The translations under genes and the position numbers were made by a program. DNA of 64,000 nucleotides from Methanohalobium evestigatum Z-7303 (lineage in GTDB: Archaea; Halobacteriota; Methanosarcinia; Methanosarcinales; Methanosarcinaceae): NCBI RefSeq assembly GCF_000196655.1, contig NC_014253.1, forward strand, positions 1,629,423 through 1,693,422, read 5' to 3'. This document shows positions 45,137 to 48,757 of this stretch, piece by piece. The notes beneath the pieces were generated by a model. It did not search any database. It saw only the letters and a program-made list of their open reading frames with translations, and was not told the origin of the DNA. Each line of letters begins with the position of its first letter. Position 1 is the first letter of the stretch.

Positions 45137-46264
45137 TCATCCCGAAGGTGAATTGATGCCTATTAGATTCTGTCTATCCAACGCGAATTTTTTAATGTTA
45201 ACTGATGCGTTGATGTCCCTATCATGTATCGTTTTACAGTCAGGACATTCCCATTCTCTGTCTTTAAGTTCTAAATCCTGATGATGATATCCACATACAT
45301 GACAGATTTTGCTTGATGGGTCGAATCGTTCTATCTTGATAATATTTTTACCGTACCATTCTGCTTTATACTCTAATTTCTGAACAAAACTACTCCATGA
45401 AGCATCGGTTATATGCTGTGCCAGATTATGATTTTTCAGCAGTCCTTTTACATTCAAACATTCCAGTGCTACAGCTTGGTTCTCGCTTATCAACCTGGAA
45501 CTTAATTTATGCTGGAAATCTTCTCTCTGATTAGCAATTTTCTCATGATATTTTGCTATCTGATGTTTCAGTTTCCTGTAATTGTTAGAACCCTTCTTTT
45601 TTCTGCTGAGCCTTTTCTGTAATACCTTCAATCTTTCAATTGAATTTTTCAGGTATCTTGGATTATCGATTTTTTCACCATCGGATGTTACAGCGAAATC
45701 CTTGATTCCTACATCGACTCCTATAGTATTAACTTCGTAGAATGTCTGTTTTTGTGGTAATTGTTTGTCGTCATCGACTAAAATACTGATATAATATTTT
45801 CCTGTCGGTGTTCTTGTTATAGTTGCAGTCCTTTGTTTACCATCAAAACTTCTATGAAGCCTGGTTTTTATCCAGCCGATTTTAGGTATGTATACTTTAT
45901 TATTACCAAAATCGACTTTATAATACTGAGGAACAGAAAACGATTGTACTGGGTTTTTCTTGGATTTAAACTTTGGAAAACCTGATTTTTCTTTGAAAAA
46001 TTTGGTAAAAGCATTTTCCAGGTTAAGAGTAGCTCCCTGTAATGATTGTGAGTTAATCTCTTTCAACCATTCATAGTCATCTTTTAATGCCCTTATCTGT
46101 TTGTTCAATTCAAATCTTGATATTGCTTTACCATCCTGCTCATAAGATTTGATTTTGTTCTCCAATGCCCAGTTGTATATGAACCTACTAGCTCCTATAT
46201 GTTTTGTAATTAACTCCTGTTGAGTTTGATTTGGATACATACGATACTTGTAGGCTTTTAACAT
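45137..46264 (-). CDS. tnpB: RNA-guided transposon endonuclease TnpB (zinc-ribbon type)
   Basis: A 375-residue full-length TnpB. N-terminal helix-turn region MLKAYKYRMYPNQTQQELI, then ASRFIYNWALENK and SFSVPQYYKVDF. RuvC motifs are GVDVGIKDFAVT (Asp), AVALECLNVKG (Glu) and HDRDINASVNI (Asp). A zinc ribbon (CHVCGYHH...WECPDCKTIHD) lies before the last motif. All key residues are present. Downstream of its stop is the right-end hairpin and then the 3' end of tsr3 in antisense. Confidence 0.94.
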   Translation of the reverse strand: MLKAYKYRMYPNQTQQELITKHIGASRFIYNWALENKIKSYEQDGKAISRFELNKQIRALKDDYEWLKEINSQSLQGATLNLENAFTKFFKEKSGFPKFKSKKNPVQSFSVPQYYKVDFGNNKVYIPKIGWIKTRLHRSFDGKQRTATITRTPTGKYYISILVDDDKQLPQKQTFYEVNTIGVDVGIKDFAVTSDGEKIDNPRYLKNSIERLKVLQKRLSRKKKGSNNYRKLKHQIAKYHEKIANQREDFQHKLSSRLISENQAVALECLNVKGLLKNHNLAQHITDASWSSFVQKLEYKAEWYGKNIIKIERFDPSSKICHVCGYHHQDLELKDREWECPDCKTIHDRDINASVNIKKFALDRQNLIGINSPSG

Positions 46265-48434: not shown

Positions 48435-48605
48435 TTTATATACACTGATTAGCAGTTTTCTTCTATAAATTAGTCTATAGAAAAAGTAATCGATAATTCT
48501 CAGCATATCGTTTTGGTAGTTAACCATTTAAAAATGAGATTACTTTCACACTGCTTGGCTCTTGTTTAAATATCAGGATGTCATATTGGAGTATTGGTGA
48601 TAGAA
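48435..48605 (+). promoter_or_regulatory. Promoter and structured leader of the 28-codon gene
   Basis: TTTATATA (48435-48442) predicts initiation near 48461-48467. From there: hairpin TTCTATA (48461-48467) / TATAGAA (48476-48482). Then AAAGTAATC (48483-48491) pairs with GATTACTTT (48538-48546), enclosing CGATA/TATCG (48491-48510) and TGGT/ACCA (48514-48526). This is a three-way-junction shape. A second TTTAAATA box lies at about 48568. The gap 48258-48605 holds no other gene. Confidence 0.5.
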
Positions 48606-48692
48606 ATGGACGAATATTTCGAGGATTTGTTCCAGAGAGCCAAGTATTACGAGCAGTTTGAAGACATCGACAGGAAACTGTATCTGAAATAA
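48606..48692 (+). CDS. Putative 28-residue small protein
   Basis: An ORF of 28 codons rich in Asp, Glu, Tyr and Phe (MDEYFEDLFQRAKYYEQF...), which would form one amphipathic acidic helix. GGTGAT lies just upstream of ATG 48606. Codon choice (GAC, TTC, GAG, ATC, CTG) is richer in G/C than nearby intergenic DNA. A promoter with structured leader precedes it and a GAGGCTGG/CCAGCCTC terminator follows. It stands as its own unit. The function is unknown. Confidence 0.6.
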   Translation: MDEYFEDLFQRAKYYEQFEDIDRKLYLK

Positions 48693-48701
48693 TAATAGAA
48701 G

Positions 48702-48757
48702 AGGCTGGCTACCTAAACATTCATCCCCTCTCTTTCTTTTTACCAGCCTCTTTTTTT
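48702..48757 (+). terminator. Terminator after the 28-codon gene
   Basis: GAGGCTGG pairs with CCAGCCTC around a loop of about 33 bases, followed by a T7 run. Confidence 0.7.

Follow-up and report, generated by a model that had tools for sequence, protein, structure and literature searches.

A conserved 28-codon gene of Methanohalobium evestigatum shares a promoter box with DNA-repair genes of related methanogens, suggesting an SOS-like damage response

To our knowledge, a transcriptional DNA-damage regulon has yet to be defined for methanogens or for most Euryarchaeota, and a literature search outside subscription journals returned none. In the bacterial LexA/SOS system, one box precedes the genes for a recA-type recombinase, uvrA, dinB, recQ, a small regulatory protein and the integrases of mobile elements. 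Small toxins can also be SOS-induced, TisB being an example. The closest archaeal counterpart is the Orc1-2 (DDRE) regulon of the Sulfolobales, in which Orc1-2 binds an ANTTTC hexamer (PMC5817253, PMC9738581). In this study, we relate a small gene of Methanohalobium evestigatum to these systems through an 18-bp box in its promoter.

The window is a 64,000-nt stretch of the M. evestigatum Z-7303 genome (NC_014253.1), in which a first-pass annotation had described a self-contained unit made up of a TATA box, a structured three-way-junction leader, a 28-codon open reading frame (ORF) and a terminator, and had proposed it to be a small-protein mRNA or a dual-function RNA. All of the named elements, including a short hairpin, can be read in the sequence; only the ORF and the 3′ stem exceed chance. 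With a probability of roughly 0.7, we read the locus as a small-protein mRNA of an SOS-like damage regulon, in which the box serves as a DNA-repair cis element and for which activation and induction by damage are predicted. The features concerned are collected in Table 1.

Table 1. Features of the small-gene locus, numbered by position in the window
Feature	Position	Strand	Basis or remark
Distal TATA-like TTTATATA	48435..48442	+	TATA box of the first-pass annotation; possible minor upstream promoter
Inverted half-copy of the box, AAAGTAATC	48483..48491	+	In most Methanohalobium copies
Regulatory box ATTACTTTCACACTGCTT	48539..48556	+	18 bp; 0 mismatches to WWTACTTTCACNNNGCTT
Likely TATA box TTTAAATA	48565..48572	+	8 bp after the box; spacing as at ORF copies and repair genes
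Shine-Dalgarno-like GGTGAT	48596..48601	+	Sequence; other genera have GAGGTGA in the corresponding place
28-codon ORF, peptide MDEYFEDLFQRAKYYEQFEDIDRKLYLK	48606..48692, stop included	+	ATG start codon read from sequence; homologues, third-position bias
3′ UTR stem-loop	48701..48750	+	Arms GAGGCTGG (48701-48708) and CCAGCCTC (48743-48750); loop motif CATCCCCTC at 48722-48730
T-run (T7), likely transcript end	48751..48757	+	Sequence

Homologues of the 28-residue peptide were identified in 36 of 60 relatives by similarity search (E <= 1), and a profile search covering 150 genomes of the class found it in 78. All of these matches fall within the Methanosarcinaceae, where nearly every sampled genome has the ORF; the other families of the class gave none. 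Among the five Methanohalobium ORF copies, codon position 3 accounts for 71 of the 75 pairwise base differences, and across 241 pairs of family members the differences at the three codon positions number 897, 583 and 1959. Because of these homologues and this third-position bias, we regard the ORF as real and, judged by its substitution pattern, as a genuine gene under purifying selection. The two signals on which the first-pass annotation had staked its reading, homologues and synonymous-site bias, are both present. The locus has the relatives and the codon selection of a conserved small-protein gene, which supports a small-protein mRNA whose translation is predicted.

The peptide is acidic, aromatic and soluble, has no transmembrane stretch, and is invariant at F5, L8, R11, E16 and E19 in 14 aligned rows. 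Searches of Pfam and NCBIfam assigned it to no family, searches of the PDB and of viral contigs gave no match, and PHROGs returned weak matches only (best E about 0.002). The peptide strings used as queries are absent from the main text of a report on Methanosarcina mazei small proteins (PMC11456600). The gene had no earlier name, and the micropeptide family is unannotated. Two possible features of the peptide were considered and rejected: an amphipathic helix, as its hydrophobic moment is no higher than in shuffles, and a PIP-box, as the invariant arginine occupies the required hydrophobic position.

Comparison of the copies places the probable promoter of the ORF at 48539-48572; the TATA-like sequence chosen by the first-pass annotation exists, but conservation lies with the proximal elements instead. 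Across the 48 distinct ORF loci, WWTACTTTCACNNNGCTT is present within one mismatch at 43. In 41 of the 48 the box begins 66-70 nt before the ATG and the TATA box follows it by 8 bp, while the two further boxed loci encode longer N-termini. Among the copies lacking the box are the fifth copy of the M. evestigatum genome, the second copies of Methanosarcina-type genomes, and L157 and L158. As the box is non-palindromic and sits directly upstream of the BRE/TATA, it would suggest binding of an activator. Promoters of Methanolobus psychrophilus stand some 19-22 nt from the transcription start (PMC5378194), a spacing that predicts a start near 48593 here. The 5′ UTR would then measure about a dozen bases and contain GGTGAT, and the supposed leader would be mostly upstream promoter DNA.

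The same box is widespread in the family. In 51 family genomes, all of which contain it, WWTACTTTCACNNNGCTT has 436 matches, compared with 87 for the reversed control. For about 100 box sites the downstream genes were read and then named by profile. Across the family, the box stands at the same spacing before radA (TIGR02236), RPA (PRK07217), hef (PRK13766), recQ, dinB/dpo4 (an IMS-family polymerase), uvrA (TIGR00630), rmuC and a radical-SAM repair gene (TIGR03916), and with looser spacing (three sites) before xseA, the large subunit of exonuclease VII (ExoVII). A MutS-domain HHH protein, a tyrosine integrase and several unknown families also follow it. From 38 repair promoters we derived the consensus AATACTTTCACcccGCTT, followed by TATATA at the spacing of the ORF promoter; a gap of about 8 bp between box and TATA is common to the ORF and most repair promoters. 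An excess of boxes is also seen in two other families of the order, with radA, RPA, recQ and xseA (named by eye) behind them, and two further families tested show no excess. Thus, among the relatives, one cis element precedes several DNA-repair genes above chance and across genera, and most of its identified chromosomal targets are genes of recombination, excision or translesion repair.

The box also occurs at the promoters of integrases (three loci) and of TnpA/TnpB-like transposase genes of the IS200/IS605 kind (five loci), as if mobile elements had been wired to the damage response. Several box-driven proteins have no Pfam match (L113, L070 and L121; L099 and L139; L123, L128 and L149; L090), and an NCBIfam search with L113 and L099 returned nothing; these families are candidate new repair or response proteins.

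In Methanohalobium itself the picture differs from that in its relatives. The M. evestigatum genome comprises a 2.24-Mb chromosome and a 164-kb second contig, and the sister genome is a Methanohalobium MAG. Boxes with no more than one mismatch in M. evestigatum are confined to four ORF copies, an ORF-less copy with a resolvase-like gene behind it, and two other genes, one of CbiQ type and one on a plasmid; two integrase-like genes are among the sites added at two mismatches. Allowing up to two mismatches reveals no box before radA, RPA or any other recognised repair gene of this genome, so we infer the repair regulon there from relatives. Upstream of RPA, a decayed box with four mismatches (AATTTTTTAACTCTGCTA) remains at the ancestral spacing, and that of the sister genome is visibly similar and also decayed. 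Judging from these remnants, the repair genes of Methanohalobium appear largely to have lost the box, which may leave the small, amplified gene as the regulon's main survivor. Its five copies in M. evestigatum include recent duplications, and the fifth, divergent one (L135:700-786) has no box and has kept the 3′ stem-loop. With five copies, and as part of a multi-gene regulon, the unit is not self-contained as first described.

Box and upstream region are duplicated without the ORF at C1:1939609 and C1:2205144, one of these adjoining a serine-resolvase-like gene, and a TnpB-like ORF of an IS605-type element lies near the unit (window 45137-46264, minus strand). In Methanosarcina-type genomes (L040, L042, L167), about 1.3 kb separate the ORF from a second copy that has neither the box nor the 3′ element.

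Under our preferred reading, an activator would bind the 18-bp box, a cis element of a DNA-repair regulon probably common to the Methanosarcinales, with the TATA box 8 bp downstream; activation is presumed more likely than repression. A short mRNA, predicted to span roughly 48593-48757, would be made from this promoter and would encode the small, acidic, aromatic, soluble peptide of this Methanosarcinaceae-specific family, most likely upon DNA damage; the signal behind the box could also be another stress. By analogy with other damage-induced micropeptides, the peptide may be a small effector whose binding modulates a single partner protein in repair, replication or division. The 3′ stem-loop would end or protect the transcript, with a further role as an RNA possible, and the regulator is presumed to be still at work in Methanohalobium.

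Of the structures first proposed, the 3′ stem with its T7 run is present and beyond chance (z = -4.12 in the window). Across 22 distinct homologues all eight of its pairs show two-sided changes and 95.5% of cells pair, and none of 500 shuffles reached the covariation score. Because a MAFFT alignment across genera misaligned the stem, its arms were matched manually, a procedure biased towards pairing. A covariance model built mostly from Methanolobus (R1) independently placed Methanococcoides matches at the same post-ORF position, and weak matches (E 0.4-0.8) in ANME-3 and Methanosalsum at that position too. In all, a post-ORF stem surrounds the conserved loop in six genera (Methanohalobium and five others), the loop reading CCTCC-ATCCC with TTTGCTTTC, and CATCCCCTC / CATTCATCCCCTC in Methanohalobium. 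Many Methanolobus copies have no evident U-run, from which we infer that the element there is more than a plain terminator.

A conserved structured non-coding part thus accompanies the ORF, and a dual-function RNA is conceivable by way of the 3′ stem-loop, not by way of the leader. Such a transcript would act in trans through its C-rich loop, pairing with or binding the target of a co-regulated small RNA (sRNA) that bears CATCCCCTC. We came upon this RNA as a conserved 70-nt sequence at five box sites without an ORF. By similarity search, the sRNA of about 70 nt occurs in 17 of 60 relatives from seven genera, with the box upstream of all 17 copies, a fold supported by five two-sided changes, and CATCCCCTC in nearly all copies and genera. 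Rfam searches of the window, the local region and the sRNA loci gave no family except two tRNAs elsewhere in the window, and this is a previously undescribed structured RNA driven by the box. Three genomes have it 2.1-2.3 kb from orc1/cdc6, and two more have it close to the end of the contig that is opposite orc1; it was not found in Methanohalobium, either by similarity or near orc1. That the loop sits in a covarying stem and stays with the ORF even where the box is gone speaks for a role in trans; the CATCCCCTC match, however, is short and was spotted post hoc, a terminator or stabiliser role could account for the stem, and no 3′ element was seen at Methanosarcina or Methanimicrococcus ORF copies, so that we hold this role to be possible and no stronger than tentative. 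Rather doubtful is a fuller scheme in which the regulon has its own activator and box, and in which micropeptide mRNA and sRNA, the latter near the replication origin and with the same C-rich loop, jointly hold replication or division during repair.

Could the box instead mark a promoter class of a different or broader stress, such as cold, salt or oxygen, with repair genes only a part of it and the peptide a general stress protein? Its presence before the sRNA, integrases and IS200/IS605-type transposases would fit, as might the "cold box" reported upstream of nine cold-induced sRNAs of Methanolobus psychrophilus (PMC5378194). The identified chromosomal targets, however, are mostly repair genes, and we consider this explanation unlikely. 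A damage-induced toxic peptide, or a toxin-antitoxin-like unit, is very unlikely: it would account for the multiple copies and recent duplications in one genome and has precedent in TisB, but the peptide is soluble with no membrane-spanning stretch, is strongly conserved across nearly all family genomes, and has no antisense antitoxin that we could see.

The three-way-junction leader has fared worst. Its 9-bp closing stem (AAAGTAATC/GATTACTTT, 48483-48491 with 48538-48546) has one arm within the 18-bp conserved box, pairing with the inverted half-box; the fold is unexceptional (z = -0.64, with 56 of 200 shuffles folding equally well); and the covariation check proposed for it found no two-sided change in the stem among five distinct copies. 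Neither a fold beyond chance nor covariation nor an Rfam match therefore marks it as riboswitch-like. The distal TATA-like sequence occurs in L008, a copy of the sister genome, has similar counterparts in a few others, and is absent from L002-L004, so that only some Methanohalobium copies share it. An RNA of about 290 nt from this distal TATA, with the leader controlling translation, hence seems scarcely credible: the TATA-like sequence and inverted repeat do exist, but several M. evestigatum copies lack the former, other genera retain the proximal box and TATA alone, and the fold and its stem behave as just described.

A box with fixed geometry before radA, RPA, hef, recQ, dinB and uvrA makes a damage regulon testable in tractable Methanosarcina, and the box itself is a bait for finding the regulator. 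The unannotated micropeptide family and the Rfam-absent sRNA are candidate checkpoint effectors.

Set against known systems, our box shares with the Sulfolobales DDRE a setting in an archaeal DNA-damage regulon, here putative, a non-palindromic element upstream of BRE/TATA, and a core identical to the upsE hexamer ACTTTC, which conforms to ANTTTC. The Sulfolobales hexamer lies at -44 to -39, however, whereas our core precedes the TATA box by 17 bp, roughly 10 bp further upstream; and our box is 18 bp long and targets repair enzymes, in contrast to a hexamer that targets pili. Orc1/Cdc6 as an autoregulated regulator was rejected, the orc1/cdc6 loci from eight family genomes having no box, and no regulator was found. 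Given these differences in position, length and targets, and the boxless orc1 loci, we do not assign the box regulon to the Orc1-2 regulon. Unannotated small ORFs of the same archaeal family, some on dual-function RNAs, are likewise described for M. mazei (PMC11456600). As in the SOS response, whose micropeptides of the SulA, SidA and TisB types are similarly short, a very small protein here belongs to the putative damage regulon; we claim no sequence kinship with those types, and ours is not membrane-spanning. The LexA operator is palindromic, whereas the methanogen consensus is not and stands upstream of TATA, in the position of an activator site, and its targets (RadA, RPA, Hef) are archaeal, unlike those of LexA. 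In its working, nevertheless, with one box before recombinase, uvrA, dinB, recQ, integrases and a small gene, the regulon resembles SOS, which suggests an SOS-like damage response in methane-making archaea, with induction by damage as its prediction.
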